Of a stretch of 64,000 nt of DNA, positions 7,047-57,195 are shown in pieces. Origin of the DNA: Larus michahellis (lineage: Eukaryota > Chordata > Aves > Charadriiformes > Laridae). A program made the position numbers and the translations under genes. How positions within the stretch are numbered: the stretch's first letter is position 1; each line of letters begins with the position of its first letter. The notes under the pieces are model-generated. The model was not told the DNA's origin and ran no database searches. It was given only the letters and a program-made list of their open reading frames with translations. The stretch is taken from positions 17,395,378 to 17,459,377 of the forward strand of contig NC_133906.1 in NCBI RefSeq assembly GCF_964199755.1, read 5' to 3'.

Positions 7047-7136
7047 GTTTGGGGGTGTCATGGAGGGGGGGGGGACAGGCCGCACCGTGTGGTTTGGGGG
7101 TGTCATGGGGGGAGGGGGGACAGGCCCCTCTGGGCG
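7047..7136 (+). repeat. 45-bp G-rich tandem duplication
   Basis: Two copies of a unit starting 'gtttgggggtgtcatgg' and containing a long G-run followed by 'acaggc' begin at 7047 and 7092. It lies at the start of intron 1 within the CpG island. Similar G-runs flank it on both sides. Confidence 0.85.
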
Positions 7137-7150
7137 TGAGGTGGCTCCGC

Positions 7151-7169
7151 GGGGGGGGGGGGGGGGGGG
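7151..7169 (+). repeat. Poly(G)19 tract
   Basis: Nineteen uninterrupted G residues in the first intron. With the G-runs across 6912-7270 this makes the plus strand strongly G-quadruplex-prone. Run length is likely to be imprecise in sequencing data. Confidence 0.95.
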
Positions 7170-21800: not shown

Positions 21801-21912
21801 ATGCCCAAGGAAAAGTACGATCCACCTGATCCACGGAGGATGTACACAATTATGTCCTCAGAGGAAGCAGCCAACGGAAAGAAATCACACTGGGCAGAGT
21901 TGGAAATAAGTG
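21801..21912 (+). CDS. CNOT6: CNOT6 coding exon 1 (aa 1-37)
   Basis: The acceptor is ctcaacag at 21797-21798; the exon starts at 21799 and the ATG is at 21801. The donor is agtg|gtaag. It encodes MPKEKYDPPD through LEIS and the first base of Gly38 (phase 1). The start is fixed because all three frames of the proposed upstream exon contain stops or run out of frame, and because the family begins MPKEKY. Confidence 0.97.
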
Positions 21913-24900
21913 GTAAGAAACTGAGGAGTGGTCCTGAGTGATGAACTCTCATTTGTCAAGAGGGTGAAGCTGGGGACGACACATAGACACATGCTGTTAC
22001 TTTAAGTAATGTCACAACAGCGTTGTATTGGTCCATGACAGTACAGTTTCCATTGAAGCAGATGTTTTCAGTTTAAAAGCAGTTTTAAGTCTTTGCTCTG
22101 TTCTTGAGATTTTAAAAAAAATTATGAACAAGATGAAAAAGTTCCTCCAAGAACTGTGCTAGCTTTGAGCTAGCACAGTTTGACTTTTGGATGTTTTCCT
22201 GAAAAGAAGATAATACTCAGAATCCATAAACATGAATTCCAGCTGGTGTGGGACACCACTCTCTCTTGATTTGTGGAATAAATTCTGATTTTCCTACATA
22301 AGGTGTGTTTACAAGGAAATTCAAGCAGATATTTTAAGAACTTAAAAATTATTTTGTGATGATGTAAATTTAGGCTGAAATTTTGCTTAAATATGGAGGT
22401 TCTTGAAGAGACGGCAAAAATGGCTATGTGGTATTTCTCAATGACTGTCCAGTAGAGAAATGTAGGGAAGGAGGGGTACAAAGAGAGTTCTTCGAATTGT
22501 AAAAAGTCTTTCCATCCAGATCATTGAATCTGTGTCTTGCTTCAAGTGCCACGTGCCTTAACGTGTGAATAGCATTCTTTACTTGAAGGTTACAGATGCA
22601 GAAACCTAGTGAAACGCTGCTCCAGGAATCAGCGTTATACATCAGCATTAGGCTTGGATATCCACTTGGACATCTGCTGTCTCGGCATAAGGAGATGCAT
22701 TAAGTGATGGCTCTTTGCTTTCATGCCTGGTAATCTCGCTACAGGCTGATTCCAGCTGAGACAGGTGCAGGTAGTGGGGAGGATGGATCAGTGATGCTGA
22801 CTGGAAATCCTTTCAGCTACAAGGGTTTCTTTGATCAGTCACCTGTTTGCATTGTCTGTGGGGAAAGAGGTGTTAATTCAATTTTAAAAATGCAAAGAAC
22901 TACTGATTTGCCCTTAAAACCTTTCAAAAGATTTTTTAATGAGCACTACAGTAGCATGAATCCTTTAAGAACTGTATGAGTTTGCCTTGCAAAATAAAAT
23001 GGGACAATATTTTTGTTTCGTTGATGTTCACGGTGTCTTTTCCTTGCAAAAAACTCGGTCATCTAATACAGAAAGCCACAAATGTTTGAACTGCTCTCAT
23101 TTAAATCACTGAGCTTTTCCACTGCGGGCTTTTTTTATGCTGCTCACTTTCTTATAGCTCACTGGAAATGAAACCTGTATTAAACCTTTTGTTACCAGGG
23201 GCTGAGTCCCAGGTACACACGTGTATCAGCGGAGCTTTCCCCAGGCACTAAATATGACTTCTTTTATTTTGAAGAAAATCATTTAAGGAAAGGAATTATA
23301 ATGTGTATATGTTGGTATAATATTAGACTGTTCTTAATATTGGTGAGTCATGATGGGTTTTCAGAGTCTGTCGCAAGTAACTTTTGGCCTTGGACAAACT
23401 GGTGTTGGTGCTCTCCTTCTAACGCTTTTAGAAGTGCAGTGAGGTGACTTCTGTAGATAAAAAAGGAGCCATTCCTGGGGGGAGGGGGCGGGGAAATATC
23501 TTGGAGAGAAGAAATGTTTTGAAACCTTCTGATGATATCTCACATTCCTTGCATGCGGCGATGTAAAAATCTTGATTCTGTCACACAAATCCATGTTTCC
23601 ACCCTTCAGTTTATACAAAAATCATGCCTTTTTTTTAAATATCTGGCAATAGTTTATGCAGCTTTTAGTTGAATGCCAGATGGAAATCCATGTTCTCAAC
23701 TAAGCTTTTTAGTCACCCTAAATATAGTGCTTCTATCTGTTCTTGGCTGGATTAATGCCATAGAATAAAGATTTTTTGGTTTGAAAGATGTTGCACAGAA
23801 ATAAGGGGCAAACCAAAGAAGCATCTTTCATCTCAAACATAAACTATAATTGAAAAAAAAACCTGTTTCTTATAGCTCTGCTAATTATTGAATTAATGGT
23901 CAGTTAGTAAATATGTCTTGTTTTTTATGAAACTCGAGGAAGACAGGTGTTTAAACCTGAGGTATGGGTTGGAAGAAAACAACCTAAGCATCCCTGGCAA
24001 CACCTTACATTCTGTTATGCATTGCTGAATTTTTTTGATCTGTAGAACTGGTGATTAATGGATTTTTCATTGAATAAAATAGTAATAATAAAAAACACAA
24101 CAAAACCCAAAGCTCTCCCTCAAGTCGTCCCCCCCCACCCCATACATACTTAGAAAATGTATACTTATTACTAAACCTGTATGTTTTAAATGTTCTATTA
24201 TCTTTTGTACCTTCCTTCCACAGGGAAAGTGAGAAGCTTGAGTTCGTCATTGTGGACGCTGACCCATTTGACAGCTTTGCATCTCAGTGACAATTCCTTA
24301 TCCCGTATTCCTTCAGACATTGCCAAGCTTCACAATCTGGTATATCTGGACCTGTCCTCTAATAAAATTCGCAGTTTACCAGCAGAGCTCGGAAACATGG
24401 TGTCACTCAGGTACGTAAATTTTAACAGGAGTTAAAATTATCTTATTATCTTTGTAGCAACAGTTTAAATTTCAGCATGATTTTTATGTTCTAGTAAATG
24501 AAAAGCATAAATAAATTCCCCTTTCCTCACTTCTTTTTATCCGTCTCCTTGAATACTTGGTATAGTCTGTGCAGCTATAGCCATGCTGGCTTTTCTGTGA
24601 TCTCCTGTTCTGATGCGTGGCTGTACAGAATGAGCTTCAAAACTGCTCGGTTTGATAGCAGTCACCCATTTTATATTTTTCCAGGTCGGGTTTCCTCTCT
24701 TACGCGTGTCTTCCCAGACTCTTTTACAAATCTTTATGTGGTGTTTTTCTCTAAGAAATACTGATACACAAAAAATTGCTTTTAATACATAGGTAGGGAA
24801 AAGGTCATATTAAACATTCATAATCACGCTAACTACAATTTTTTCCTCTTTATTCTTCATAAGAACTATTGCTAAGAATATTACTAATTCTGTTTATTTT

Positions 24901-27900
24901 GTAACAACTGCAACTTGTCTAGTATCATCTCCTTCCCACCTCTGCTGTCATGTAACTGTATTCCTGTGCAAACTGGGGAGAAAATGTTCTCACACACCTT
25001 TTTTTCCCCTCAATTTTACAATGCCAAGATGTGCATGGAATGATACTTCGTTTTGGAAGTGAAACATGGATAGTGATGCCTATTTAGATTATAATTAAGG
25101 CTGCAGCATTTCACTTTATAAAAACACTGCCATGTTTATATAAATGATATAAACCATTTATATATTTACAGGCAACGTTCTTTTGCCTTTTACCCAAAGG
25201 AAGAGCCTTATCTTGGTTTATTTGACAGTTACCAGTAATTGTCTTCATTGCTTTTAATTTTGAAGACATTTATGGACAGCTTTCTCAAATCCAGAAAACA
25301 GTGAGTCTACAAGTGATGAGAGTGCTACTAGAAGTAAAGAAGAAGACAGTAGGGAAACGGACTGCCAGCACAGCTTTAATGAAACTGGAAGCAAAGCAAG
25401 TTTGCACATAGAAATATGCATTTTCTTCTACTTTAGAAAAGTCCATTCTGTTAGGGAGGATTAAACTAGCTGATTAAAATTGGTCCTAAAAGCTCAAATT
25501 CCAAAGCAGTTAAGTCTCAACCTTGGAGGCTGAGCAAAGGGACCTTGTTTTTTAGAGCGGAATTGGTAGCTCTGTATTGTAGTGTGTTGTTTTCAGCTGC
25601 GGAGTAGTAACACAAAGCTTTCTTTAGAACAGACTATTTGAATTGAAGGCAGTTATTAGTAACAGGTTTCTTCCCTCCTTTATGCACTCTTCAGGTATTG
25701 TGAGTTGGCAATCCTTAATTTACTGGAACATTCTCAAATTCATCTTTGCACTTCATTAATGTCCCTTCATTTTCATCAGTCTCTTTCCTTTTAAAATATT
25801 GCTGTAAACTTAATGCTCGTGACATGGAGTTAGTTTAGCACGGTGTAGTCATCAGTAGTGTCAAAAGGTGTTTTACCTTCTTCCCAGCACTTTTCCCAGT
25901 TTATTCAGGCTGATCCTATGAAGCTTCAGCTCTTCCAAGTCTGACGTCTCTTCTGAGTAGAGAAGGCTAAATCTTGTGAATGTGAAATGTGTAGGATCAC
26001 ACTAGTTTCCTGTTTGTGACCTGCACATAACGCTTGAGTCCAGATCTCTAGATGTGGAAAGCTAGTGTATTAATCCACCGTACGTTCTCTGTCCCCAGTA
26101 ATTGCAGCTGATCCCTCATTTCTTTTCACTGGGGTGAAAGTGAAGAAAAACCCGTAAGCGCATCCTACGTGATAGCACTCCGTAGGTCTCAGCTGCGATG
26201 GAGTTTTAGGTTTCAGGGTGGCTGTTGCTGCAGACACTTCTCAGAGCTTTTGGGAAGTTGTTCAAACTAGCGGTAATTCAACACTGGGCATTGGCAATAT
26301 CCTGAGCCACAGAAATAATTTGTGCTCTCACACGTGAGAATTGGTACGGGGTCAGCCAGCTCCCACATCTGGAGCTCTGGGTTTAGTCTCTATGGCAAAG
26401 CTTGCCCGAGGCTCCTTCATCTGTCTTTTTCCTCCAGGTACTTGAAGAAGGAGGTGCCAGAGCAGTAAGATTTCTGATCTTTGTGGAAAGAGGAGTAAAA
26501 AAATAAACACTGTAATATGTTATCTTGGAAAGCTCAGCTGTAAACCAGATTCTCTTGATATGCCTGAAAGAACTGGTGGGATTTGCCATGATCCCCTTCA
26601 CTGTGTAGAGGGGGTGGGTTCCACGGGGGCAAATATCATTAGAGAAAACAATTCTTTCATCCAAGAGAGAAAGTGTAATGATACCTGAAAAGTGTAATGA
26701 TACCTACGCCACTGTGCCATTCTTTCAGCTCGGTGTTTCTTTTCGAGAAGAATTTTGTATATCTTTTTGTAATTCATACTTCAACATAATATGTATTTTG
26801 TCTCTGTGTGTGCGTGTGTTTGAGTACAGCAGGTTTCCCTAACTATTGCTGTCAAATCTTTGAGTTCTTCAATATTGTGGTTTGCTAGTATATTGTTTCT
26901 CTTTTAGTTAAACTTTTTGTACTATACTGCTGAAGACATGTGTTGGTCTGTTTTCAGTCCTGTATGATTCTTCTCTGTCTACAGGGAACTACATTTAAAT
27001 AACAACCTGTTACGAGTTTTACCTTTTGAGCTGGGAAAACTGTTCCAGTTACAGACTTTGGGTCTGAAAGGTATTACTACTTTTTCTTGATGTCCGTGCT
27101 TGTTTAATGATCATCGCTTCAGAGATGCAATGGCTGTAGACTGCTAGTTCATAAAATGTTACTGAGTAGTAATCCCAGATGTAGCTACTTACTCCATGTA
27201 AGTAGAGTTTATAAATATTGTTATTTAGAAAAAGAAAACCAGTTTGGCAAAGCTCTTCACACATGAAAAGGTTTGCTTCTCTGTCTGCAGAGTGGAAGCT
27301 TTCCATTGCTTGCACAGGGGTTGGATACAATGCTGCTTTAAGAAATAGCCTGCAGTTAACTGCAGGTGTCCAACTCCAGCCAAAAAGGGAACACGCTTTG
27401 TACTGCTGTAGGGTGTTGTGCTGTTTATGCAAGCAGCAATATAAATCTTTTTCCAAATTTTTTTTTTAACTGTATAGATTCTAGCTATAAAATTGCTGAC
27501 CTCGGGGGAACTTGTATCACGGTATCAGGAGCGCTGAGTGATACAGTACCTCTAAACACTGTTAAGTACCTCTAAACACTGTTAAGTCTCAAAAGTCTGT
27601 TTTTCTCCCTCTTAAAGTCAGATATTACAATGTGCATTGTCCTTGAAAACTTTACAGTCTGCTTATGCGTTTGGCAGATGATAGGCTCTGCTCGGGTGTG
27701 ACTGGCAAATAAACTGATGGTGGATGTTTCACTCGCGTTGAGCAAAGGGAGCAGAGGTGGCTGCTGTGTTTGGCCTCAGCAGCTCTGATGTGTGTTGTAC
27801 CAGCTCTTCCCTACTGGCGGATCCAAGGACCGCGCTTGGGGTGGTCAATCAGAAAACAGACACAGGAGGGAACGTAGTTCCCTTCACTAGAGCTGTTCAC

Positions 27901-30900
27901 GCATCTCGTGTTTTGTGGGATGGAGGGCAGGAGATCTGAAACCTCTCAGTAGTTCGTAGTAGGTGCAGTATCTTTTCTTAGAGATGCCAGCGTTAAACAC
28001 TGATATGTAAGTTCAGATGGTTCTGTATATTTTATTCGGTATTTCTGTAAATCTGTTTGCAGGAAATCCACTTACACAGGATATTCTGAACCTTTATCAG
28101 GAACCAGATGGGACACGAAGGCTACTGAACTATTTGCTTGATAATTTGGCAGGTACTGCAAAAAGAAGTAAGTGATCATTCTTAAAACATATATTTCTGC
28201 TGTGTCAAATAAATGTGATTATCACTTGTTGTATCTCTAAAATGTTCCCGTAGTTTCAACAGAACAACCACCTCCAAGATCTTGGATTATGTTGCAAGAA
28301 CCAGACCGTACAAGACCAACAGGTACTGTAAGACTTTGCCTTTTTTAAAAAAGTTTTTCTCTTAGAAAAGCTGTGTTTCACTATCTGTTTAAAACTTTTT
28401 GATGCTTCAATTAACCAGTCATCTGTGCAGTGCCGACCAGCCAGCTGAAATAGTTCTATCTCAATTGGAACACCTGTTCCAGATTTACCCACCTTTTACT
28501 ATAAAGTAATTTCTTTTTAATTAATGTCCTCCTCACAGGAATTGAAACTGTTGTCCACAATTAGTCAAGTAGTTGAATTATAACAGGCTTAATTGAACAT
28601 TTCTTGAAGAATAAAAAAATGGAAGAACATGAGCGTAACTTCCCAAAAATGTAGAATTTTTTCCTCTTAAGTAACCAGTGTATCATCTTTGTCTCAGCAC
28701 TTTTCTTGCTGTTGGGATTCAGGTCATGTTTAATTGTTTACTCATTTTTTCTGCATGAATTGTCTAAAATATAGCCTCTTCTGTTTACCTGCACACCAAA
28801 AATCTTAGTGTATTTCTCAATTAGTGCAGTGTCTTCTCTTTCAGGACTGATGTTCGTTACTTTCCCCTATTGATTTATTTTTTTAGAGTGGTTGCTTCAG
28901 AGATCGTGATGTTAATGCAGCTTGTCTTTTGCTGTCACCTATTTATTTTCAAAACACTGGACTTTGACCCCGAATCAGCCCAAGATTGTTGCCTCAATTT
29001 GCTAAATCTTCAAACAATTGTCATGAGGTTTTTTTTCCTGAGTTGCACTCCACATTTGAGAGGAGCTCCCAATGAGCCTCCAAGTATTTCATTATTGTAC
29101 TGTAAATTCCTTAGCGTTTCTTAAACAAAAAAACCACAACAAAACAAACCCCCAATCCATGCTGCCATTACCTGTCACATTGCCCCAAACTGTCTCATTA
29201 TCACTCCTGTTCCAAAGGTATACAGAGAGTAGAAGTTTCTTGTCTTTACACATGAATTGTAAGCTTTTTAGAGGTGAAAACATTTGGGGTTTTTACTTTG
29301 CCTGTACTTTTTCATTGTGGGAAGGGATCCTTACCCTGCCTATGGATCTGTTGCTGTTTGTGGTGGTAATAATTGAGGTAGATTTTAAATAATCTATTTG
29401 AAGAGTTTGCAAACCTCTGTATAGCTAGCAAATGTTAAGTGTTCAAATACACTGACCGTGTTTTAGGCTTTTCACAGTTGAGCACCAGTTAGTATAAAGT
29501 ACCTTTGTCTGCTATTTACTGCATTAACTATATAAATCGGGGGGTTGGGGTTTTTTTTCTGGTTAAATGCTAGAAGACAGCTGCCGTAAGTCGTGTAATT
29601 TATCTTCTTAGAAGGACTAACAATTATTTTTTTTAGTATAGATGTATGTGCTGTGTTTTGGTTGAAACAAAGGAAGTGTGAATTGATAAATTTGCAGAAG
29701 ACAGAAATGAAGAACATAATTGTGTGTATATATATATATATATTTCCTGTTAAATATATCAGTGTGTAAGTAAAATTATTGTTCTGCAGCCTTGTTCTCT
29801 GTCATGTGTTACAACGTACTCTGTGACAAATACGCTACCCGGCAGCTGTATGGCTACTGTCCATCTTGGGCATTGAACTGGGAATACAGAAAAAAAGCCA
29901 TTATGCAGGAAATCCTGAGCTGCAACGCTGACATCATAAGTCTTCAGGTAAAATACATACTATTCTTTCTTTTCCTTTTCTATTCCCTTGTGCCAGTTTC
30001 TCCAGATTAAATGTATTTACAGTAAACGGTCTGTTTTCAAAACCTTCTGAAAACAAAAGAAAAAAGAAGTGGTGTTTAGAACGTTATTTGCTGCTTGACA
30101 TCAAAAGAATGCTTTTCAGCCCACACAGTTGGAATGCGAACCAGCAGCTGCTGATCAAAGAAATGTGTGTGGGGGTGTTTTTGTGCCTGCGTGTGCATGT
30201 GGGGCTATAATTGACACATTTTCAAATAAAGGGCTTGAGATAATCATAACTCTGGGGATTACAGAAATTCCTTTATATTTTCTTAAAATAGGGATATTGC
30301 TCTCAAATTTGCATTCTCTGAGGTACTTAATTCTTACAATTTTTTCCCTTAAATCTAATTTGGAAGTGATTTACACTTCTGAAGAATCTAAATAATATCA
30401 ATCTTCTATATTTTGCTAATAGTACATTCACGCTGTGCTGTCTCGTAACTTTATAGGAGGTTGAAACGGAACAGTACTACAGTTTTTTCCTGGTAGAACT
30501 GAAAGAACGTGGCTACAATGGATTCTTCAGTCCAAAATCTAGAGCTAGGACAATGTCAGAACAGGAAAGAAAACATGTTGATGGTTGTGCAATATTTTTC
30601 AAAACAGAAAAGTAAGTGATGTGTTTTGCAAAGCCTTTTATCATCTCTTGCTCTCTTTCACATCGTTTCTCAGGCCAGTCTATACCTCAAACAGTTCGGC
30701 ATCAGTTGCTCTTTTTGTAGCCGTTCAGTGTTTCTTTTGCAGCATTCTTACCATTAGAAAAAATGGTCTGTACAACAGAAGTCATTCTGTGTGTAACTAG
30801 CAATAGCAAATTTTACCCTAAAGTTTTGTTTAAGTTGAAATTTCGTGCTGTTGGAGCAATGCAGATTAGGAGATCACTAAATTACACTTCAGTTGTTGAG

Positions 30901-33900
30901 TGTGCGTGTTCCAACCGTTAGGTGTTAATAATGAAAAATGAAGCAATTGTCTTGTTTTCTTGCCTTTTTTTTTTTTTTTTTTGAGTAAAGGAATTGATAA
31001 TCCTCAAAATTGCTGTAATAAGACCTCAGATGACATTGACTTTTTGGTACATTAGCCTTCTGATAAAGCAAAAGACAAGGCACTTATTATCACTGCTTGC
31101 CTGTGGAAAAATAACAAAACCAAACATTATTTAAGAGTTGCAGCACTTACTGATTGTGTCACACTGTGCTGTATGGACATAAGGGTGATAATTTCCCTTC
31201 CTCCTCTTCCTTCCATTCCTTTGTGTCCATAAGTAAATGTAGGTGCCAGATTTGATACCTTTTGGTTTAGAAAAATTATTTAGTCCCTCTCTCTTAAACC
31301 TGCATCTTTGAACTAGAAACTGGTGCAGAATTAGAAAAAAGCACTCCTTTTCTATAGCTTCTGAATCTCTCTGGAAATAAAATCTTTTAATTGAAACTAA
31401 GGTAGTATAAAATATATAAAAATTGCTAGGAAAAATGTGTGCTTTGATTTCAGTTTAGGATTTTGTGAAATTATATGATTGGTTGAGTTTTTCACACCAT
31501 TAATATGTTTGAGCTTTAATTAAAAGGAGAGTTATCCATAACATTTCTTTTTGTATCTGGCTGCTGAAAAAAAAATACATATGGTGTTTCTCTTTCAGAT
31601 TTACTTTGGTTCAAAAACATACTGTTGAGTTTAATCAACTAGCTATGGCAAACTCAGAAGGTTCAGAAGCGATGCTGAACAGAGTTATGACAAAAGACAA
31701 CATTGGAGTTGCTGTATTGTTAGAACTGCGAAAGGAATTGATAGAAATGTCATGTAAGTCCTATTTAGTTGAATTTTTTAATAGAGTGTATTTTGGAAAT
31801 GAAAAAAAAAAAAGACTTGTTATAGTAAGTCAGAGAAACTAGGTTCTGCAGATGAATAGAACTTTGCACATTGTGTGCTCAGACAAATTTATTTTCAAAG
31901 AGGATTTGGGGAAAAGTCACACTGCTTAAATGGTGAGGATTTTTTTTTCCCACTTATACCTTTTTGCTTAAAAAATACAAAGACTTCAGTTTGAGTGACT
32001 TTTTTGTTTTGTTTTTTTGCTTGAAGTTACATGCAGGTATCAAAGAATCAATTAGTGTTAGTTGTGTGTTTCTGGATCATGTATCTGCATGATTTTAGCT
32101 TGTTGTTTTCTTCACTGTCGTGCTTATACAACCTGTTTGTTCTGCCCTGTTCATTCTTAATTTAGCAAATGTAAATTGGCTTTATAGGTATTGCAGTGGG
32201 TACATACTCAACCTGTGTTATATTTATCCAAATGGTATTTTATTAATTCAGATTCTAACAAACAAGCCTTTTCGGAAGCACTTCTAGCAAGAGAGGTAAT
32301 TTATTATGTGGATAACTTAAAATTCAGAGCTCATTGTCTGATAAGATATGAGCAGTGCCTGTTTACCATCACAATCTGAGGAAAACTGGTTTAATTTTTT
32401 AGAATGACACTATTTGCCTGTAATTAGGATTATCTGTTTTTTATGTTAATTCACAGTATTCTTAGATACATAAGCATTACCTATAACAAGATAGTCTGTC
32501 TGTTAATGGTCTTGAATGCAAAACACAATTATTCCTAGTGCTTTATATCAACTGCAACACTTAGGAGATGTAAGAGGAGTTGTATGACCCTCTTAAATTA
32601 AATGGTATTAACCTCCTTCAGATTATACTGGTATTTTATTTTATTTTTTCCTCCCACAAAACATCTTGTTTAAAATTCAGTAATAGTGTGTTCTGTTGTT
32701 GACCTTGTAAGGTAAATAATTGGTTTTGAATTTTAGCTGGAAAGCCACATCTTGGGATGGAAAAGCAGCTAGTTCTTGTAGCTAATGCACATATGCATTG
32801 GGACCCAGATTATTCCGATGTGAAGCTGGTTCAGACTATGATGTTCCTGTCCGAGGTAAAGAACATTATTGATAAAGCTTCTCGTAGTCTCAAACCTGGT
32901 GTTTCGGGAGAACTTGGAACCATTCCACTTGTACTGTGTGCAGATCTCAATTCTCTACCAGACTCTGGTAAGAGTTCTATTTTTATTTATTTATTTTTTT
33001 ATTTTAGACTGTTTCAAGTGTGTAACAATTTAAATTTAAAGATCTGACTTTTCTAAAGGAGTTTTCACCTTAAAGAATATGTTGTTTGGTGTCATAAGCT
33101 CTAAAAGTACTAAGAAAATAAGGAAGAGAGAAAAGGTAGAACTGTTTGTCTTGAGTGACCTCATTGCCTGTTCATTAGTATAGCTATGTCTGGTCTTTCA
33201 GAGGCATTTTCATTGTTACCTTACAATGCAGGAATGGAAAGGAAGAAAATGTCTTCCAAAAATAGCTGGAAACCTGGTATGTTGCTGATAATTGGATTTT
33301 CTTAATTTTAAGTGTGAGAAGATAGGTTCTTCTCTTTAAAGTTGCCACCGTATAATAATTTCCTGGAGCTCAAATGTTTTAGATCTTCTAAAATTCAGTA
33401 CATCTCCTGCTGGAAAGGGATTCCTCAGACCTCTTTACTAACATACAACTTTTTTTTTTGACTTGGTGGCAACTTTATAAAGTGCAAGAAAAGAACAGAT
33501 ACGGTGATTGCCTTCTGAGCCTTCCTGGGGTACCCACCTGAAGTGCTGAACTCAAGAGCCATCCTTCCTTCTTATTGCTAGTTGTTCAATATAATAATCT
33601 CCATTCCTGATACCCGTTCCTTCCGGTCTCTGCTAGGGTTGACAGGAGCCGTTGCTGCTTAGCAGTACTGGAAATCTCATTCTTTTTGATCCCAGAAAGA
33701 CAAGTATTGCTAGTGGTATTGCAATAGCCAGTTCACGTGTCTGATTGTGTCTTCAGAACAACTAATCGCTTCTTCTACCTTCTGGAACCTTAACACAGCT
33801 ATTCTGAAATGAAGAGGCACGATCATAGTTTTCCAACACACAAATCCTGTCATTTTGGCCTTGCAGCCTCTTTATCTGAAGTGGTGTTACGAAAGTTGGC

Positions 33901-35404
33901 TTTTTTTTTTTTTTTTCCCAACGTTTTAGCTGAAGAACATTGAAAGCCAAGACTTGAGCATAGAGAGGAGGAGAGGAGAGGAGGAAGCTGCCCACCTGGC
34001 AGCTATAGAATTTTACTTCCACTTTTTCCTTCTTCCCCCTCTTATTAATCTTCTCATTTTTTCTAATGAAAGCATGTCTCTCTCTCCTAGGTGACTTTGC
34101 TCTTGACACAAATATACATTGTCTTGCAATATTTTAAAATAACTACTGCTGACTGTATAGTATGTGTGTGTTAAGGTTTTGCTTATATAAAGCATAAAGT
34201 TGCATGTATGACTCAAAGTACCTGCACGTTCTTATTTGCTGAAGGCTTGTTAATACCTTCTTGTGTGGATGTGTCTCCTAATAGGTGTTGTTGAGTACTT
34301 GAGCACTGGTGGAGTGGAAACAAACCACAAAGATTTTAAGGAACTGAGATACAATGAAAGTCTTACTAACTTCAGCTGTAATGGGAAAAATGGAACAACA
34401 AATGGAAGAATTACACATGGTTTCAAGTTGAAGAGTGCCTATGAGAATGGTCTAATGCCTTATACAAATTATACATTTGACTTCAAGGTAAGGACTTGGC
34501 TGGTAGTTTGGAAAAGTTTCCCATTTTGAAGTTTAACTAATGGGATTTGCTGTACAAAATTGTTTAACAAAGAAGTTAACCTGTTTGGGTAGCTAACAGT
34601 GAATTCGCCAAGTTTATATTTAAAACATAGTAAACTAGTGTGCATGACACTTCAGTCTCCTAGAAACCAAATTTTCCTTTTCCTTGTTAGTAATATGTAG
34701 TAGATTAGTAATATGTAATAGATTTGTGAGAGTTGGGATGCTGTTAACCCTCCCTGTAAATAGGAAGATTCTGTATTTTAATACTCCAAGCTAAATGAAA
34801 CAGTACAGCAGGGGCACTTAAGCTGTCAGCTGCAAGGAGATAATCCATGTTGCTACTGGAAAACTCTCAGTGCTCTGTTGCCCAGGGAAGCAAAGATGGT
34901 TGTCTTCCTCTTCAAAATCAGAGGAAAGTGATTTAAAGCTTTGTAGGAGGTTGGAAATTACAACCCACAAAAGCAGAGCAGAAGTGATAGTTTTTCTTTT
35001 GTTTTCCTAATCTGTATTGAGCTCCCCATGGGGTATGGGAAGCAGAAGTCTCCCGAGTCGGTGATGTTGTGTGGAGAAGGAACGGTAGCCTTTCCCTTAC
35101 TTGTAATACTGAGCTCAGCTTTTGTTTGGAACAATAACTTGAGTCAAGAACGTAAACTAATAATCGATTTTTCTTTCTCTTCTTATTTTAGGGTATTATT
35201 GACTACATCTTCTATTCTAAACCTCAGCTAAACATACTTGGCATTCTTGGACCTTTGGATCATCATTGGTTAATAGAGAACAATATAAGTGGTTGTCCAC
35301 ATCCACTTATCCCTTCTGACCACTTCTCACTTTTTGCACAACTGGAGCTTTTGCTGCCTTTCCTGCCTCCTGTAAATGGAATCCATCTCCCTGGCAGGAG
35401 GTAG
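21801..35404 (+). CDS. CNOT6: CNOT6: CCR4-NOT deadenylase subunit 6 (CCR4a), eleven coding exons
   Basis: CNOT6 is a Mg2+-dependent 3'-5' exoribonuclease that removes mRNA poly(A) tails within the CCR4-NOT complex. Joining 21801-21912, 24224-24410, 26985-27070, 28063-28167, 28254-28322, 29790-29947, 30457-30611, 31599-31753, 32737-32967, 34285-34487 and 35192-35404 gives 1674 nt: 557 codons plus TAG, the same length as human CNOT6 as I recall it. Residues 52-130 are leucine-rich repeats, which in this family bind CNOT7/8 (CAF1). Residues about 188-540 are the endonuclease/exonuclease/phosphatase (EEP) domain with E240, D412, N414 and H531 in place. The N-terminus starts MPKEKYDPPDP and lacks the short extension of the CNOT6L paralogue. 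The QEPDRTRPTALFSVMCYN stretch is also CNOT6-type. Every intron is GT-AG and phases match. I see no lesion. Confidence 0.98.
21913..24223 (+). other. CNOT6: CNOT6 intron between coding exons 1 and 2
   Basis: About 2.3 kb of AT-rich intron, gtaag...ccttccacag. It contains one small perfect hairpin at 22152-22180 and no reading frame that I can support. Confidence 0.9.
22152..22180. repeat. Perfect inverted repeat, 13-bp arms, 3-nt loop
   Basis: aactgtgctagct, ttg, then agctagcacagtt forms a perfect 13-bp stem in the intron after CNOT6 coding exon 1. It is too short for a microRNA precursor unless flanking pairing adds to it; only weak extra pairing is visible (ccaag against cttttgg). Confidence 0.9.
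24224..24410 (+). CDS. CNOT6: CNOT6 coding exon 2 (aa 38-100), LRR
   Basis: Acceptor cttccttccacag; donor ctcag|gtacgt. It encodes Gly38 to the first two bases of Arg100, with leucine-rich repeats (LTALHLSDNSLSRIP, LVYLDLSSNKIRSLP, LGNMVSL). This is the LRR part that contacts the CAF1 deadenylase in this family. Confidence 0.98.
24411..26984 (+). other. CNOT6: CNOT6 intron between coding exons 2 and 3
   Basis: A 2.6-kb intron, gtacgt...tgtctacag. Apart from the 19-bp duplication near its 3' end I see no element or coding sequence. Confidence 0.9.
26670..26707 (+). repeat. 19-bp tandem duplication in intron
   Basis: The word 'aaagtgtaatgatacct' occurs twice in direct succession with a 19-bp period, about 300 bp upstream of the LRR exon at 26985. 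Confidence 0.9.
26985..27070 (+). CDS. CNOT6: CNOT6 coding exon 3 (aa 100-129), LRR
   Basis: Acceptor tctctgtctacag; donor tgaaag|gtatta. It completes Arg100 and encodes ELHLNNNLLRVLPFELGKLF and LQTLGLK, ending in the first base of Gly129. It continues the leucine-rich repeats. Confidence 0.98.
27071..28062 (+). other. CNOT6: CNOT6 intron between coding exons 3 and 4
   Basis: A 1-kb intron, gtatta...ctgtttgcag. The exact 20-bp duplication at 27546-27585 is the only element noted. Short open frames near 27049-27469 look like chance. Confidence 0.9.
27546..27585 (+). repeat. Exact 20-bp tandem duplication in intron
   Basis: 'gtacctctaaacactgttaa' is present twice without change in the intron after coding exon 3. 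Perfect identity suggests a recent event or a variable locus. Confidence 0.95.
28063..28167 (+). CDS. CNOT6: CNOT6 coding exon 4 (aa 129-164)
   Basis: Acceptor atctgtttgcag; donor aagaa|gtaagt. It encodes NPLTQDILNLYQEPDGTRRL then LNYLLDNLAGTAKR and the first base of Ile164. It is the end of the LRR cap leading to the linker before the nuclease domain. Confidence 0.98.
28254..28322 (+). CDS. CNOT6: CNOT6 coding exon 5 (aa 164-187), linker
   Basis: A 69-nt exon only 86 bp after the previous one. Acceptor gttcccgtag, donor caacag|gtactg. It encodes STEQPPPRSWIMLQEPDRTR then PT and the first base of Ala187. This linker sequence distinguishes CNOT6 from CNOT6L. The length is a multiple of three, so skipping would keep the frame. 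Confidence 0.97.
28323..29789 (+). other. CNOT6: CNOT6 intron between coding exons 5 and 6
   Basis: A 1.5-kb AT-rich intron, gtactg...gttctgcag. It ends with a TG/TA microsatellite about 50 bp before the next exon. Confidence 0.9.
29721..29743 (+). repeat. (TG)n(TA)n microsatellite
   Basis: A TG then TA dinucleotide run sits close upstream of the CNOT6 acceptor at 29788-29789. Length polymorphism here would fall in the branchpoint region. Confidence 0.92.
29790..29947 (+). CDS. CNOT6: CNOT6 coding exon 6 (aa 187-239), start of EEP domain
   Basis: Acceptor gttctgcag; donor cttcag|gtaaaa. It encodes ALFSVMCYNVLCDKYATRQL and the region to ADIISLQ, the first beta strands of the EEP nuclease fold (MCYNVLCDKYA is the family's N-terminal signature). 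It ends in phase 0 directly before catalytic Glu240. Confidence 0.98.
30457..30611 (+). CDS. CNOT6: CNOT6 coding exon 7 (aa 240-291), catalytic Glu240
   Basis: Acceptor aactttatag; donor agaaaa|gtaagt. The first codon is Glu240 of the QEVE motif, a metal-binding residue of the EEP active site. It continues through the SPKSRARTMSEQERKHVDGC region to the first two bases of Lys291. Confidence 0.98.
30612..31598 (+). other. CNOT6: CNOT6 intron between coding exons 7 and 8
   Basis: A 1-kb intron, gtaagt...tctttcag, with an internal T-run near 30967-30982. I see no other features. Confidence 0.9.
31599..31753 (+). CDS. CNOT6: CNOT6 coding exon 8 (aa 291-343)
   Basis: Acceptor tctctttcag; donor tcat|gtaagt. 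It encodes FTLVQKHTVEFNQLAMANSE through NRVMTKDNIGVAVLLEL and RKELIEMS, core EEP-domain strands conserved between CNOT6 and CNOT6L. Confidence 0.98.
31754..32736 (+). other. CNOT6: CNOT6 intron between coding exons 8 and 9
   Basis: A 1-kb AT-rich intron, gtaagt...gaattttag. I see nothing further in it. Confidence 0.9.
32737..32967 (+). CDS. CNOT6: CNOT6 coding exon 9 (aa 343-420), Asp412/Asn414
   Basis: Acceptor ttgaattttag; donor gactctg|gtaaga. It contains the NAHMHWDPDYSDVKL motif and the catalytic CADLNSLPDSG motif with Asp412 and Asn414. The segment around SLKPGVSGELGTI is more divergent from human CNOT6 as I recall it, in a surface loop. Confidence 0.98.
32968..34284 (+). other. CNOT6: CNOT6 intron between coding exons 9 and 10
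   Basis: A 1.3-kb intron, gtaaga...cctaatag, with a T-run at 33901-33916 and a GGA-rich patch near 33965-33985. No coding sequence recognised. Confidence 0.88.
34285..34487 (+). CDS. CNOT6: CNOT6 coding exon 10 (aa 420-487)
   Basis: Acceptor tctcctaatag; donor ttcaag|gtaagg. It encodes VVEYLSTGGVETNHKDFKEL, then the NFSCNGKNGTTNGRITHGF region and MPYTNYTFDFK, ending in phase 0. Confidence 0.98.
34488..35191 (+). other. CNOT6: CNOT6 last intron
   Basis: A 0.7-kb intron, gtaagg...tcttatttt ag. Nothing further noted. Confidence 0.9.
35192..35404 (+). CDS. CNOT6: CNOT6 last coding exon (aa 488-557), His531
   Basis: Acceptor ctcttattttag. It encodes GIIDYIFYSKPQLNILGILG, the IPSDHFSLFAQLEL motif with catalytic His531, and ends NGIHLPGRR-TAG at 35402-35404. 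The C-terminal sequence matches CNOT6 rather than CNOT6L. Confidence 0.98.
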   Translation, partial: GIIDYIFYSKPQLNILGILGPLDHHWLIENNISGCPHPLIPSDHFSLFAQLELLLPFLPPVNGIHLPGRR

Positions 35405-49295: not shown

Positions 49296-49592
49296 TCTGG
49301 GGCCAGACTCTTTTCAGTGGTGCCCAGTGACAGGACAAGGGGCAACAGACACAAACTGGAACACGGGGAATTTCATCTCAACGTGAGGAAAAACTTCTTT
49401 ACTTTGGGGGTGGCAGAGCCCTGGCACAGGCTGCCCAGGGAGGTGGGGGAGTCTCCGTCTCTGGAGACATTCCAAACCCGCCTGGACGCGTTCCTGTGCC
49501 ACCTGCTCTGGGTGACCCTGCTCTGGCAGGGGGTTGGACCGGATCATCTCCAGAGCTCCCTTCCAGCCCTGGCCATTCTGTGATTCTGTGAT
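49296..49592 (+). mobile_element. CR1 LINE 3' fragment with ORF2 tail
   Basis: The longest CR1 copy in the window, plus orientation. It starts 'gccagactcttttcagtggt', continues 'gacaggacaaggggcaacag', 'aacttctttactttgggggt', 'ggcacaggctgcccagggag' and 'tggagacattccaaacccgc', and ends 'attctgtgattctgtgatt'. The frame is still open and reads the C-terminal end of CR1 ORF2 (the [19 protein letters not shown] and [20 protein letters not shown] motifs of the region behind the reverse transcriptase). It is 5'-truncated and not autonomous. Confidence 0.95.
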
Positions 49593-49817
49593 TGCCTGGG
49601 TCCTGGGCACAGAAGGCCTGACCCTGGCAAGGCAGAAAAGCTTTGCAAGGCATCGGATGTGTGGGGAAAGGGCCTGGGAGCTGGCTCTGTTGGTGGCCTG
49701 GTGGGATGAGAAGGTGTTTGGGTGGCGAGTCATAAGCTCATGTGCTGTGGACCAGCCCTGCACTGAGAATAGTCACCTGTGGTTCTGCAGTAACGGAAAC
49801 AGCAGCTTGATATAACG

Positions 49818-49823
49818 GTTTTA
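49818..49823 (-). terminator. Minus-strand poly(A) signal (candidate)
   Basis: Plus-strand TTTATT reads AATAAA on the minus strand. It is the first such signal that I found downstream of the 326-codon minus-strand frame, about 2 kb after its stop codon. It may end that transcript. Confidence 0.4.
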
Positions 49824-51784
49824 TTTGTTTTCTCTGTCAAAAGCAGTGATACATGCAGTTGGCACAAGACTTGCTAGGCATTGGTGTCATAAACATTCAC
49901 ACAGAGAGAAACTAAAACGTCAGCAGGGCAATGAGGACAAGCATCATTGAATCCCGGCGTTAACCTGAGAAGGAAGGGAAAGATGCGGAGGCAGAGCAGG
50001 CCGGCACCTCCCTGATCCAGCTCTCTCCATTGGCTCTGACAAATGCTGGAGCCGCCTTCACTTTTGTTCTTGCCACGGGGTTAGTTCAAAAACGAAGACG
50101 AGAAGCAGTTCAGCTCCACAGCGCTAATGAGTTTCAACAGGAGAAGAAATATTTGAGGTAAGAGATGTGGGAATGAGAAGCTTGAATATGCTCACCTTTT
50201 GATCCTCGGGCGTATTTACACTCGTGTTGGTACTGAGCAGAAGTTGCCTTCTGATTTAGTCTGCTTGAGGGTGGTTGAGAAATCGCTTGTGAGCCTTTGT
50301 ATAATTGCAGCTTTCCGGTGGTATTTCCCACCTTAACCGCGGTTGAACAAACAGCCTGGTCCCTCTGCTCTCCTCTGTGCCAAAAAGATGTATTCCCAGT
50401 AGTAGTAGTAATAATCACGCTAGTATTGCTTTGCAGTTTTCTCACCTCCTTCTCTTGTCTGGCTACGGAGAGTGCCGTAGTGCGGTACCAAACGCGGGTG
50501 CGCGCGGCCGTCCTGCCTGCAGCAGACGCTTCTCTGGGTGGAGATGTCTCCGCGCAGCAGCGAGGGATGGCCGTGGCCACGTGCTCACCGCACCACGCTG
50601 GGACCGCGCAGCAGCGCAGGAATGCTTCTCTTCCTACGGGCACCCCGTGCAGCACTAACATCAGCTGCATTGGCTCATACGCGTGGTGTGCTGGGGGGTT
50701 GTAACATGCACGTGTGGGTTTTTCACGTTGCGGTCTCACAGCAGCAGGCGAAGCCCAGACAGCAGCGTTAGCACGGCCAGGTAGGCGAGAACACAGAAGC
50801 ACAGATAGGAAGGGAAACCCAGAAATGATTGTTTTACGTTCGAGTCCCGTGAAGGCCAGCCCGGCGTCCCCAGGCTGTCCCTCAGCCGAAGCTGCTCTCC
50901 GCGTGGTGCCGCTGAGCCTGCGGAGCCCCCGCGAGCTCCTGGGGCTCCCACACCCCCGCAGCACACGCTGGGGGTGCCCACAGTGCACGGCCCGGCTGGT
51001 GCGGGGGCGACGGGGCAGAGACCAGCGCGACACCGGGGTTTTTTAGAGGTGGCATCACAGGTTGTTACAGCTCCAGGAGAGCCGCAGCGCTGGCGCCTGG
51101 CTCTCCTCCTGCCAAGGGTGAATCAAGGAGTGACGGTAACAGGGTTGTGCCAGGGTAAGCAAGAGGAAACCCCCCACCTGGAGGAGTTTTGATATTCTCG
51201 ATGTTGCCCTCTAGCAAATCCTCATAAAAGACTTCTTATATTTTTTTAAAGATATTTCTTTGCGGTACTGCACTAACAGGTGACCTACCCAGGGTCATTC
51301 TGGTGTTGACGGTGATCTATAGCGGGTCTCCTAGTGAACGTATGTGTCACAGAGAGCACACGCAGGATTGTCCAAGCATCGGTCAAAATGTTCCTTTCAG
51401 AATAACTTTACCCAGGTGTGGGCAACATCTGGCTGTTTGGCATTTGCCGGAAAACACCAGTAGTCTGATGTTCCCACAGATCTCTTCTCCTCCAGAGCAG
51501 ATGGGGTTTATATTCTCTGCTTTTCTCCGTGCTCAGGGCAGTTCTGGGCAATAGGTGGGGGGAGATGCTTTATGAGCTGTTGCCTTTCCAGAATGAGAAT
51601 CAGTTGCTGTTTCCTTAGTGGATGAGACTCTGAATTGTGCCTTTGCCCACTGACGGGGGATATGATGGGTCGCTAAAGTCTGCCCGACTTGCATGCACAT
51701 TCAAGCCATGTTTTCTGTGTAAGGACTCCAGGGAGAGCTTCTAGTTATTTCTTGTGAATAAAATTATTCTGAGCAGCTACTTCT

Positions 51785-52765
51785 TCACACTTCAGCAATG
51801 GCTGGGAGCAAACAAGCTTTTACCTTTGCTTCTTTCCAGATGCATCTGTGCTCTGAAATCCAGTTATGGATCACGGCTTTTTTAGCTACCTGGAAGCACT
51901 CAGAGTATCTCTGCTTAGTGGGGACACCCCCCGTTGCATTTTTGTCACATTGAGGAGTTTCTCTCCCTTCTTTTTCATTGGCGCCTGCTGCATTGAACAA
52001 ACAACTCTGCTTCCTTACAGAGCAGCACAAGACTGGGTTTCCCAGCAGCTTCCCTCTGGCTGAGCACGGCGAAGGCTCCTCACCAGCGATGAACACGGAG
52101 CCGTCTTCTTTCTGACTCGGCTTACTTGCTAAAACTGCTCCCTCCTCTCCTCTGGGACACCTCAGCTCTGAGCAGACCACTTCTTTCTGCACTGGTCTTG
52201 GGGAGGGAAGTCTTGGAAAACTGAACACTCGCGGCGAGTTGGGGTTCCCTGTGGCTTTGTCTTTCATGGTTGGGGGATGAAGTTCACTGTTGGGGGAGGA
52301 AGAGCTGCACTGGGAGTAACCGGTGCTGGAGCTTTTACCGTACAAAGAAGCCTTGGAGGAGCAGAGCTTTCCTGCATGGGTGTAAATCTGTGCCAGGGGG
52401 TCCTCTCTGGACCAGAAGTTGGCTTCCGCGGGGGTGACTTTTCTCAGCGGCACCACATTTGAGATGAAATTGGTCAATTTACATTTTGACATTTCCTGCT
52501 GTGAAGGGGACCATGACCTGTCATCAAGGGTCTTCGGGGTTTTTCTGTCCTGAACCTTACGGATGCTTTCAGGAAGGCCCGGGAAGGTGGGTCTGGCGAG
52601 GTGGCAGATGGATTGAGCGTAGTCATCACTGGAGTACGCGTCTGGGCTGGCTGCAGTGCTTCCAGTGCGCTTTGGGTTGCTGGTTGAATCTTCCATCGCT
52701 TCCTCGTGGGTTTCCCGTATGGTTGGGAGAGGCTTTGAAAGATTCAGTCTTATCCGGGGTGCCAT
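51785..52765 (-). CDS. Unrecognised 326-aa protein, probable terminal coding exon
   Basis: I do not recognise this protein. The frame runs from ATG at 52765-52763 (MAPRIRLNLSKPLPTIRETH) to a stop at 51785, ending LLPAIAEV. The ATG lies 2 nt after a good minus-strand acceptor (ctgttctttgcag; AG at 52769-52768) and has an optimal context (gccATGG after splicing). The protein is Ser/Pro/Lys-rich and probably disordered for residues 20-285, with a Ser cluster at 145-158. Residues 98-130 (NFISNVVPLRKVTPAEANFW) and especially the C-terminal 289-326 (helical, with Trp302, Trp310, and EHRCIWKEAKVKACLLPAI) look like conserved short segments. No signal peptide, membrane span or enzyme motif is seen. 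It could be the only coding exon of a two-exon gene, or a chance frame; length, acceptor and Kozak placement favour a gene. Confidence 0.62.
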   Translation of the reverse strand: MAPRIRLNLSKPLPTIRETHEEAMEDSTSNPKRTGSTAASPDAYSSDDYAQSICHLARPTFPGLPESIRKVQDRKTPKTLDDRSWSPSQQEMSKCKLTNFISNVVPLRKVTPAEANFWSREDPLAQIYTHAGKLCSSKASLYGKSSSTGYSQCSSSSPNSELHPPTMKDKATGNPNSPRVFSFPRLPSPRPVQKEVVCSELRCPRGEEGAVLASKPSQKEDGSVFIAGEEPSPCSARGKLLGNPVLCCSVRKQSCLFNAAGANEKEGRETPQCDKNATGGVPTKQRYSECFQVAKKAVIHNWISEHRCIWKEAKVKACLLPAIAEV

Positions 52766-52767
52766 GG

Positions 52768-54463
52768 CTGCAAAGAACAGACCAGACATGATCAGCATGT
52801 GAAAGTCAGGTAAAGAAATTCAGGGCTTGTTTCTGTGGAGTCCGTGCTACCTCAGCCACCTCGTGTTTTCTTCTGGCAAACAGTGGTGTTTAGAGCAACT
52901 GCATTTTTAAAGTTTGCTGGCGGTACTTCTATATCCATGGCTTCATACCCATGTATACAAAAGAAGCCAAGTGATTAAGTGCAGTAGAAAATTAAAGGTT
53001 CGTTAAAGAGATCAGCAGCGGCGCTCCCTTCTGAAGCAGCGCAGGGGGCCGGCAGCCGCAGCAGCGTGGTGCAGGGACGCTGGCTCCTCTCACTGTCCGG
53101 CTGTACCAGCAAGGGACAAACTACTCTCCTTACTCAATACCCCCCCGCGGGTTTGTTCGCTGTAACAGGGCTCTGACTTCACGTAGTGTCCGAACAGGCG
53201 AGAGCTGATCTCAGCAGGAGAGGAGCTGACCTGCCCCCATGGGGACCGTCCCTGAAATAGTGACGTTACAGCTGATCTCTCCCAGAAGCCGTAGGTGACA
53301 GTGTACAAACGTGTTCATTTTTGTCTCTGCCAGTGGTTCACAAACGTAGTTATGGAGTGGTAGAGCCTTCCCTAAATACTTACGTAGAGTCAAAGGGATT
53401 TAATTCATGTCCCTTATATTCAAATAGCTATCCTCAGCTTTTTTTAGGATGGATTTCCATCAAATTTCTCCCACTAATCAAGTAAACCTTTTTGTACAAA
53501 TATTTCCTGTTACAGTGTTTGCAAACTGGACTGATTTTTTCTTTTTCCCCTCTCCAAATACTCTCCCCTGTGCTTTGCTTATCTCCCCGTCTGGCAGAAA
53601 GGACCACATAGTCTGGATCCATTTTTATTTTTTCTTTACTATCCCCCTCCAATGGAATTTGTATGTGGATAATCTGCCGACACAATATAGCTTTGTTGTG
53701 TGACTAAACACGAAAGTGCTTTGCTGGCTATTTTAATGCCTTGCTTGTCATTGCTGGAGATAAATCTGGCTTTGTTGAACCTCCCTGCGAAGCTGCAGCT
53801 CCCGTTCGGAGCACCACGAGCAGCTCGCGCCGAGCCCGGGGCAGAGCTCGGGGGTGCCCATCCCTCCGCAGCCGCTGCTGGCTTTTACTGGTTTCCGTCT
53901 CAGGTGCTATCGGTAAAGTCAGCCAAGCTGGGATTTGCTGGGCTGAGAGCAGGACGTGCTTGTTTTAAAGCTTATGGCCTTTTTATTTCCTTTTTTTTTA
54001 TCCTGTCTGCTCCTTTCTTCTCATTTTTTTAAGCATTAGGGCTTGCTCCTCCGCCTTCCTTCCCGCCCCTTGCCCAAGCTCGGCTCAGTCACCCACCCGT
54101 CCTGCCCCGGCATCGAGGGGGCAGCCGGATGCTTCAGATAATGTCGTGTTAACTTATGATAGCGCTAATCGTTAACTAAGTCCTGTTAACGTGCCCTTCC
54201 TCCGGAAGGAAATTAAATTACCTATTTACAATAAAACTCTTCCGATGAGGTGGCTCGGTGCCAGCCCGGACGCCATCCCCTTCACCGAGGTCACCTTCCC
54301 ACCCACCATCCTGCCGGCACGCAGACAGCGGGACCCCCCCAGCCCCGCGGCCTCCCCTCCTGGCCACGCCTGGAGCATCCTGCACCCATCCTGGCTCCTT
54401 CCCAGCAATATTTGGGAGGCAGCCCGCCTCCAGACCCCAGCTTTGGCGACGGCCTCCCCTTAC
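52768..54463 (-). other. Inferred intron of the minus-strand gene
   Basis: Bounded on the minus strand by a strong donor (gcgcag|gtaagg, GT at 54463-54462) and the acceptor ctttgcag (AG at 52769-52768). The pairing is inferred; other donors are possible. The plus strand here shows only short frames. Confidence 0.4.
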
Positions 54464-55260
54464 CTGCGCTGCTGCCGGGTGCGGAGGGACGGGCGGCCTT
54501 CAGCTCCCGCGTCTCTCCCTCTCCCCGTTTTCAGGGCAGAATATGTGCTGTCTAAAACTAACCCGAGCATCAGGCTCCCTGCCTACAGTCAGCTGATTCC
54601 GCTGCCTGTTTTGTTGCTGTTGCTAAATATAGCCCGCTGGCTGCCTGCCCTGCTGAGAGCCCGCATCTGGCCAACGCCGCGCGGCATCGGCACAGCGAAC
54701 GGGCACCGGGGAGGCAGGGCCACCCTGTCCCCAACGGGACGGTCACACCAAATCCCTGCCGCTCCGCTGCCTTCTTGTATTTCCCCCTGTGTGAAAGGTG
54801 AGCGCGGTGCCGGGGTCGTGCCGCAGGAGGGGCTGCCGGCACTCTGAGCTGGGGGGGTGTGTGAAAAGAGAGGACATAGTACCGTCATATTTCATTGCTG
54901 AACGGTGAATCCTTGCATTTTGAGCTGCTTTTGCTCCTTCTCTGCCTCATTTCACAAGCAACGTTCACGCTGCTTTGGCAGGTTTGCCCAAGAGGGCGGG
55001 GGGGTGCTTGCAGCATCCTAATCGCCGCTCGCCTCCCTCCCCGCTCCCAGTGTTGTGCCGAGCCGTGCACCCAGAGATGCGGTGGCACCGGCAGCCCTGT
55101 CCCCCCTCCGGCTCCCGGCTCCAACACCCCTCTCCCCGCGGCCCCCGGCATCGCCCCGCTGTGTCTCGCTGAGCCGGCGCCCGCCGAGCCAGACCACGGC
55201 AGTGCGTGACGGCAAACTGCTTCGCCAGGAGGAGCGGGCGACCTCGCGGGTCTCTGGGCA
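54464..55260 (-). promoter_or_regulatory. CpG-rich stretch, candidate promoter and 5' exon of the minus-strand gene
   Basis: This stretch is markedly richer in GC and CpG than its flanks and ends on the minus strand in a near-consensus donor (cag|gtaagg). No ATG lies in the 95 nt before that donor on the minus strand, which suits a non-coding first exon. Long open frames on both strands (for example 54191-54847 plus) follow from the low stop frequency in GC-rich DNA. Confidence 0.4.
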
Positions 55261-57170
55261 GCAGGGATTTGTCTTTGTTTTCCGGTTTATTAACACACTG
55301 CAAACTGGTTGCAATCCCAGGACAACCCCAGTATCCCTCTCCTGCAGCATCACGTTGGGTGGGGAGGTGAGTTGTTGTTTTGCAGCAGAACCTCCCTTCT
55401 GCTTTTATTTCCCAGCTCTGACCTCAGAGGGAGCCCCGATGGCTGCTGTTCGTTAGCGGGGAATAGCCACGCTGCCCAACACCCCTGGGTGACCAGGGAC
55501 AGGAGCGTGACTGCCCTTCTGAACCTTGCTGCTCCCCATACGACTCTCCTGAGCTGCTTGGAGGGATGGAAAGAAAAGCAGAAATCCTAGATTAAAAATC
55601 ACTGCTTTTGTTTTAGCACAAATATTCTCAGTGTTGCCAGCGTTCAGGCTGGAATTGGCTCTGGCTGCTGATCTGGTCCCCCAAGCCCACATTCATCATC
55701 CAAGCTCTCTCTTTATCTCCAGTGGAAAGAAATAAGCAGCTCAAAAGACTTGTGCATCCCTTCAGGAGACGGTTCAAAGCAGAGATTATTTGCTTTCTGG
55801 AGACATCCATTGCTTGGCATTTAAATATAAAAGGTGTGCAAGCTTAAGCTGTTTGTCTGGACTTCTGATGCCAAACAGATGAATGTAGCTCAACCTTCAC
55901 GCATTGAATTTGCTAACAGCCATGACCAGCTGGGATCATTCAGTAGTAACAACTTACAGCTTAGATTTCTCCTTCTTGCTTGCAGGCACCATAATTACCG
56001 TTAAATGGAGGAAAAAAAAAACACCTTAGACCCCAGATACTGTAAGCAGCTGCAGTACAAAGCTTGGGAAGCCATTTCATGAGGAAACTCACTGATCTGG
56101 CAAAAAAAATTCCACATGCGATGTGCATGGATACATTCTCTTTATAAAGCTCTTTGAGGTCGTTCCCTTCTCCTGGAAATTCCCTCCTCCCGGCTGGAGA
56201 TGTCTCCTCAACAGCCGCATGGTCCGATGGAGCAAGTAGAACCGTGGCCGTGCAAGGTGCCAGGCTGGCCGTGGCCACCCCCTCTGCGATGGCAGCGGAA
56301 TTAGGAAAACATCATCTCCAGGGCAATTTCAGGCTCGGGGTTGGGTTATCAGATGTCTAACAAGGTTGGGGCCTCTCCTAAAGCTTTTCCATATCGTCAC
56401 CCCTCTGCATGGTTTTGGGGGTGTCACGGCAGCCTCCCCTGGGAGGACGGGGCTGCCGAGACCTTGCACCCGCCCGAGAACTTCTGAAGTGATCAAGGTC
56501 CTCACCAAATGTGGTCAGGTAAGATGTTTCTTTATGAAACTACACTAAAAATCTGGGTTTGCAATAAAAATCCCTCCTATCTATTGAAATTAGTTTCTTT
56601 TAGAAGTTTGGTGTTGCTGTAGGAAAATCACATTTACTCGAATCGCTGTTATTGGAATTACTCAGTAATTACCCAGTATAACTTATTTGTTTTCTATCAT
56701 CTTTTTTACATTGTTGATGATATGAAGATTAAAATATAAATTTAAAAATACCAGATACAGCTTAAAAAGTAGCTATCATTAACCAAATATAAATTACAGG
56801 AATACCTCTTTTTTTTCCTTTATCTCAACCACAGTTCAGTTTCCTCCTTCCTCAAGCGGCTGCTCAAAACACGTTAATTAAAAAAGAAGATGCACCTTTG
56901 AGCGCTGGTTTGTCTCTTCACAAAACTGCTGTAGGTTTCTTCCCAGCCCTTCTGAGGATGGCTCTGGTGAAACCATCCCGGTCTCCTGTACTTATACTCC
57001 CCCGAGAGCGCGGTGAATCAGCATTCCTGAGTGCGTGAGAACCGTAACCAAATGGGATTAATGGCAAAAGAAAACAGCAGCAGCGGCGCCCGAGCTGCCA
57101 AGGAACACACGAGTTATTAATTCTGCAAGGCTTGGTTGATCTAAACACTGCAGAGTTAATTTTTTGTTGC

Positions 57171-57195
57171 TTTGTTTGTTTGTTTGTTTGTTTGC
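57171..57195 (+). repeat. (TTTG)n microsatellite
   Basis: Six tandem TTTG units followed by 'ctagc' and a T-run. Simple sequence in intergenic DNA. Confidence 0.93.

Follow-up and report, generated by a model that had tools for sequence, protein, structure and literature searches.

Does the sequence on the 3' side of CNOT6 in Larus michahellis hold a protein gene and, if so, to which family would it belong? We analysed a stretch of 64,000 nucleotides (hereafter the window; contig C15, positions 17395378-17459377, in a genome of 1.4 Gb and 616 contigs), in which an earlier note had described a candidate two-exon gene on the minus strand without a recognisable family. The protein gene is likely to be real, intact and distantly homologous to DEPP1 (C10orf10), a mammalian starvation and low-oxygen response protein, and the likeness suggests a second, unnamed branch of the DEPP1 family.

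The candidate occupies a stop-free minus-strand frame of 344 codons (51785-52819, stop included), a length that no sequence attained in a set of 200 simulated 12 kb stretches (first-order Markov model; median 189, maximum 331). The start ATG lies at 52765 and the TGA at 51787-51785, with 326 codons between them, and the coding sequence (51785..52765, minus strand; 326 residues plus TGA) would lie entirely in the proposed exon 2. The search of the bird's own genome with the 326-residue protein returned the self-match (100% identity over all 326 residues, no stops within) and no second copy better than an expect value (E) of 2 among 16 candidates scored; three others at E 2.1 to 4.4, on contigs C2 and C38, were dismissed as chance. 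The frame shows moderate codon-position asymmetry, which 41 of 1000 shuffles equalled. Frame length alone is not our main evidence, because a second stop-free frame of 302 codons (50134-51042, minus strand) sits nearby, inside the proposed 3' untranslated region, and lacks any codon-position signal, its asymmetry being equalled by 657 of 1000 shuffles; as it illustrates, long open frames arise by chance in this region. In the serine-rich middle of the coding frame there is also a pair of neighbouring 20-base near-copies, 85% alike, at 52263-52302.

The acceptor (ttctttgcag/ccATGG; junction 52767..52768, minus strand) places the last base of the intron at 52768 and the first base of exon 2 at 52767, two exon bases ahead of the ATG, and after splicing the start codon would have G at both -3 and +4. 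It ranks 104th among 4577 AGs and is the fourth best within 51800-54400 (good, not outstanding). The donor (CAG/GTAAGG; junction 54463..54464, minus strand), with the last base of exon 1 at 54464 and the first base of the intron at 54463, has the top score in a simple matrix among the 2951 minus-strand GTs of the window; the implied intron is 1696 bp long. A proposed, approximate non-coding exon 1 (54464..54600, minus strand) would have its 5' limit set by a putative TATA-like sequence, CTATATTTAG (54623..54632, minus strand; ~160 bp upstream of the donor), which also fits the MEF2 consensus, and the proposed promoter is covered by a CpG-rich stretch (54465..55300, unstranded; GC content 0.636, CpG observed/expected 0.759). 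The proposed polyadenylation signal, an AATAAA at 49825-49820 (49820..49825, minus strand), is the sole minus-strand AATAAA within 49500-51785 and implies a 3' untranslated region of ~2 kb. Just downstream of it, at 49318-49600 (minus strand), the sequence, judged by eye without a repeat library, resembles the 3'-terminal part of an avian CR1 repeat. The earlier note had named the uninterrupted frame of 326 codons, the acceptor 2 nt ahead of its first ATG in a Kozak context, the near-consensus donor 1.7 kb upstream, the CpG-rich stretch at the donor and the AATAAA ~2 kb downstream, and all of these were found as described; frame, donor, acceptor and AATAAA thus support its two-exon gene 3' of CNOT6, which, judged by such sequence signals, is probably real and intact. 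If genuine, a spliced first exon without coding sequence in CpG-rich surroundings would argue against a retrocopy.

Of the 24736 Pfam models, PF15343 (DEPP) alone matched the protein at E 10 or better (whole protein, E 0.034, 14.7 bits; residues 1-100, E 0.0026, 18.3 bits), with profile positions 7-28 aligned to residues 40-61. For direct comparison we used a human DEPP1 sequence (the DEPP1 query) that is sound over residues 25-212, where it scores 322.9 bits over the full PF15343 profile, and provisional over residues 1-24. In a tblastn search of the window with this query, the match (E 2e-4) set Met1 of DEPP1 against the ATG at 52765. The local alignment of DEPP1 with the window protein scored 79 (shuffle mean 37.1, standard deviation 6.1; 0 of 2000 shuffles as good), which put the protein first among 371 stop-free segments of at least 60 residues, ahead of a runner-up at 54. 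The likeness is confined to the N-terminal 60 residues and consists of two collinear blocks counted from Met1, which share a basic start, LPTIRETxEE and then DDYxxSIxxLAxPT. Block 1 pairs residues 4-24 with residues 2-23 of the DEPP1 query (52694..52756, minus strand; RIRLNLS-KPLPTIRETHEEAM versus RSRLLLSVAHLPTIRETTEEML) and was equalled in 0 of 200000 shuffles (fitted tail ~1e-6); block 2, which PF15343 also matches, pairs residues 41-60 with DEPP1 residues 32-51 (52586..52645, minus strand; PDAYSSDDYAQSICHLARPT) and was equalled in 0 of 100000 (fitted tail ~2e-5). The statement that no family could be recognised was thus not borne out for the first 60 residues, for which the Pfam profile, the shuffles and tblastn all give a distant match to DEPP1. 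Pfam reports no family of SCGB3A1 or FLT4 for the protein; all that it shares with these genes is a place 3' of CNOT6, as in the human gene order.

The proposed exon layout would also agree with that of DEPP1. In mouse Depp1, according to one study, translation both starts and stops within exon 2, downstream of intron 1, and the guides used there cut in intron 1 and just past exon 2 (PMC13373476); the window gene, as read from its splice signals, would likewise have a non-coding exon 1 and its coding sequence in exon 2. The two proteins differ in length (212 residues in DEPP1 versus 326) and show no significant likeness beyond residue 60 of the window protein. At the C-terminus, residues 319-326 (LLPAIAEV; 51788..51811, minus strand) resemble the end of the DEPP1 query, HLPVIHEL, which falls within the profile-checked part; this match is suggestive only, as the chance of such a likeness with the C-termini anchored lies between 0.0006 and 0.0019 when 8 to 14 residues are compared but rises to 0.04 with 20 and 0.13 with 27, and perhaps the LPxIxE tail, too, was kept from DEPP1. 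A middle block, in which residues 85-145 looked similar to DEPP1 on visual inspection, failed shuffling (2965 of 5000 as good) and was discarded. The protein is long and probably disordered over most of its length. A single-sequence AlphaFold2 model of the 326 residues had a mean pLDDT (predicted local distance difference test) of 37.9 and a helix at 284-305, too poor for use, so the compact conserved helix that had been suspected at residues 289-326 was not confirmed. No PDB chain matched the protein at E up to 10, no Rfam family reached its gathering score in the window, and a PF15343 search of 14 control genomes gave no match.

How could a second DEPP-like gene have come to lie beside CNOT6? 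It may be, at a probability of about one in four, that the genome duplications of early vertebrates produced it as a twin of DEPP1 that birds, and perhaps sauropsids more widely, retained and mammals lost; having dropped the peroxisomal targeting signal type 2 (PTS2), it would be a mitochondria-only regulator of stress and autophagy, in birds possibly the only DEPP left. As for the likely homology with DEPP1 and a DEPP1-like role, a number of observations weigh against them. The PF15343 scores of 14.7 and 18.3 bits are both below the curated cut-off of 27 bits, and the genome-wide search with PF15343 did not list the window gene (its single match, L001 on contig C25, at E 0.38 and with a stop inside, was dismissed as chance). 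Residues 1-24 of the DEPP1 query, which enter block 1, are provisional and lie outside the Pfam profile, and when tblastn was rerun under different composition statistics DEPP1 had no match at 1e-3 in the window. Past residue 60 there is no significant alignment (4540 of 5000 shuffles did as well when the two remainders were compared), no Pfam family matches the last 104 residues, and the free C-terminal alignment with DEPP1 is insignificant (573 of 2000 shuffles). The N-terminal end has just a modest hydrophobic moment and so is weakly amphipathic. The strict FOXO site GTAAACA does not occur within 49500-58000, where the loose form RTAAAYA occurs six times; these counts and those of the hypoxia response element had no chance comparison and are not used as evidence. 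Finally, neither a strict nor a loose PTS2 pattern has a match in the 326 residues, whereas DEPP1 carries an N-terminal PTS2 (the loose pattern matches RLLLSVAHL at residue 4 of the DEPP1 query). The loss of PTS2 could also mean that targeting was weakened or lost, because the PTS2 of DEPP1 sits inside the N-terminal domain which, according to one report, is needed for mitochondrial location (PMC11361356).

If the likeness to DEPP1 were due to chance or to convergent short motifs, the locus would hold an unrelated protein gene. Just ~40 residues match, the Pfam scores stay below the cut-off and the remainder does not align, all of which would suit such an origin; we nevertheless consider it improbable, as the two collinear blocks are each significant separately and anchored at both start codons, and the proposed exon layout would be the same as in DEPP1. 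Still less credible is a non-coding or decayed stretch in which the long frame arose by chance. The moderate codon-position asymmetry and the similar frame of 302 codons nearby, which has no coding signal, agree with it, but the simulations never reached the observed length, the best donor of the window and an acceptor directly before a well-placed ATG accompany the frame, and the protein likeness starts exactly at the ATG at 52765.

A closer competitor to a paralogue of DEPP1 is that the window gene is the bird's own DEPP1, relocated from the RASSF4/ALOX5 region to the neighbourhood of CNOT6 with the original place left empty, which we regard as possible though doubtful. RASSF4 and ALOX5 are the neighbours of human DEPP1, and RASSF4 is its host gene. 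Human DEPP1 is located on chromosome 10 near 45.47 Mb (PMC7016973), whereas the window gene adjoins CNOT6, which is not the counterpart of that place. Relocation is favoured by the bird's own genome, in which no close second copy of the window protein turned up and PF15343 finds no true DEPP1. The ALOX5 exons were located on contig C10 (the window gene is on C15), and in the 35 kb 5' of ALOX5 the DEPP1 query had no match at E 1; the window protein had two (E 0.15 and 0.40), dismissed as chance, and no DEPP-like match there was better than E 0.15. A search of the same genome for SARAH domains found five loci (L031-L035), which appear to resemble RASSF1, 2, 3, 5 and 6, none of them resembling RASSF4. 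RASSF4 was thus not found among the five SARAH-domain loci of the assembly and may be missing or unassembled, a result that fits loss of the DEPP1 place as well as a gap in the assembly. Some of this support is offset: the silence of PF15343 across the genome proves little, because the search missed the window gene too, and the comparison covered only ~40 kb around ALOX5 in an assembly that may lack a stretch. Moreover, paired genes (RASGEF1C/RASGEF1A and HNRNPH1/HNRNPF) occur in the regions around human CNOT6 and DEPP1, and these pairs would point to an old whole-genome duplicate rather than relocation; the literature searched on paralogous gene pairs of these two regions held nothing on point.

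What might the protein do? DEPP1 has been described as induced by FOXO, HIF or fasting, as mitochondrial and as an inducer of autophagy (PMC11361356, PMC4197242, PMC5445297). Published work connects it with FOXO3 and HIF signals on the one hand and autophagy, loss of mitochondria and peroxisomes, and fat metabolism on the other (PMC11361356, PMC5445297, PMC9223522), and in neuroblastoma cells DEPP is described as required for FOXO3-driven autophagy (PMC5445297). Full human DEPP1 was placed in mitochondria with no overlap with peroxisomes, and a variant without the N-terminal domain was cytosolic and did not induce autophagy, according to one report (PMC11361356); elsewhere DEPP1 was placed in both peroxisomes and mitochondria and bound PEX7 (PMC4197242). 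In the gene proposed here, a TATA-like, CpG-rich promoter would drive a non-coding exon 1, followed by the 1.7 kb intron and by exon 2 with the whole coding sequence; the protein would most likely act as DEPP1 does: it would be produced under nutrient or oxygen stress, its N-terminus, with three basic and no acidic residues among the first 12, would carry it to mitochondria, and there it may promote autophagic remodelling. Taken alone, such a DEPP1-like mechanism (stress induction, mitochondrial targeting, autophagy) is put forward tentatively, by analogy. A direct route into peroxisomes via PEX7 is unlikely for the window protein, because its sequence has no PTS2.

Among the literature matches listed, titles and the beginnings of abstracts named no DEPP1 paralogue and contained nothing on point about an avian DEPP. 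If a diverged second gene has retained the N-terminal part alone, it would reveal which part of DEPP1 carries function. In birds, whose needs during fasting and for oxygen are high, the window gene would also allow DEPP action to be studied in a natural setting where the peroxisome signal is missing.

The gene order around the candidate is a GFPT-type gene (minus strand), CNOT6 (plus), the window gene (minus) and a PLAC-domain gene (minus). CNOT6 is the tail-to-tail neighbour, its coding exons lying at 21801..35401 on the plus strand (tblastn with human CNOT6; of 12 rows, 9 had 80-100% identity). The GFPT-type exons upstream (L017-L019, 17 rows), also on the minus strand, we assume by gene order to belong to GFPT2 rather than GFPT1. 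The next recognisable gene in the 3' direction is on the same strand as the window gene, and its last exon (L002:4408-5100, minus strand) reads as a PLAC domain with a Pfam E of 0.0012 and 19.9 bits, below the cut-off of 26.4; against PDB this exon had chance-level matches only (best E 0.066). We take this neighbour to be of the ADAMTS2/3/14 type and probably ADAMTS2-like. As for FLT4, which the earlier note had expected beside CNOT6, the FLT4-type kinase motif HRDL[AKT][AT]RN is absent from 110 kb downstream, where the PLAC-domain gene lies instead (SCGB3A1 was not searched for). Three further stop-free frames of the window (48914-49372 and 58035-58598 on the minus strand, 61388-62017 on the plus strand) and one of L008 gave no Pfam match at 0.1. 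Another CpG-rich stretch of the window, at 6600-7600 (GC content 0.668, CpG observed/expected 0.763), is probably the CNOT6 promoter and contains long proline-rich chance frames.

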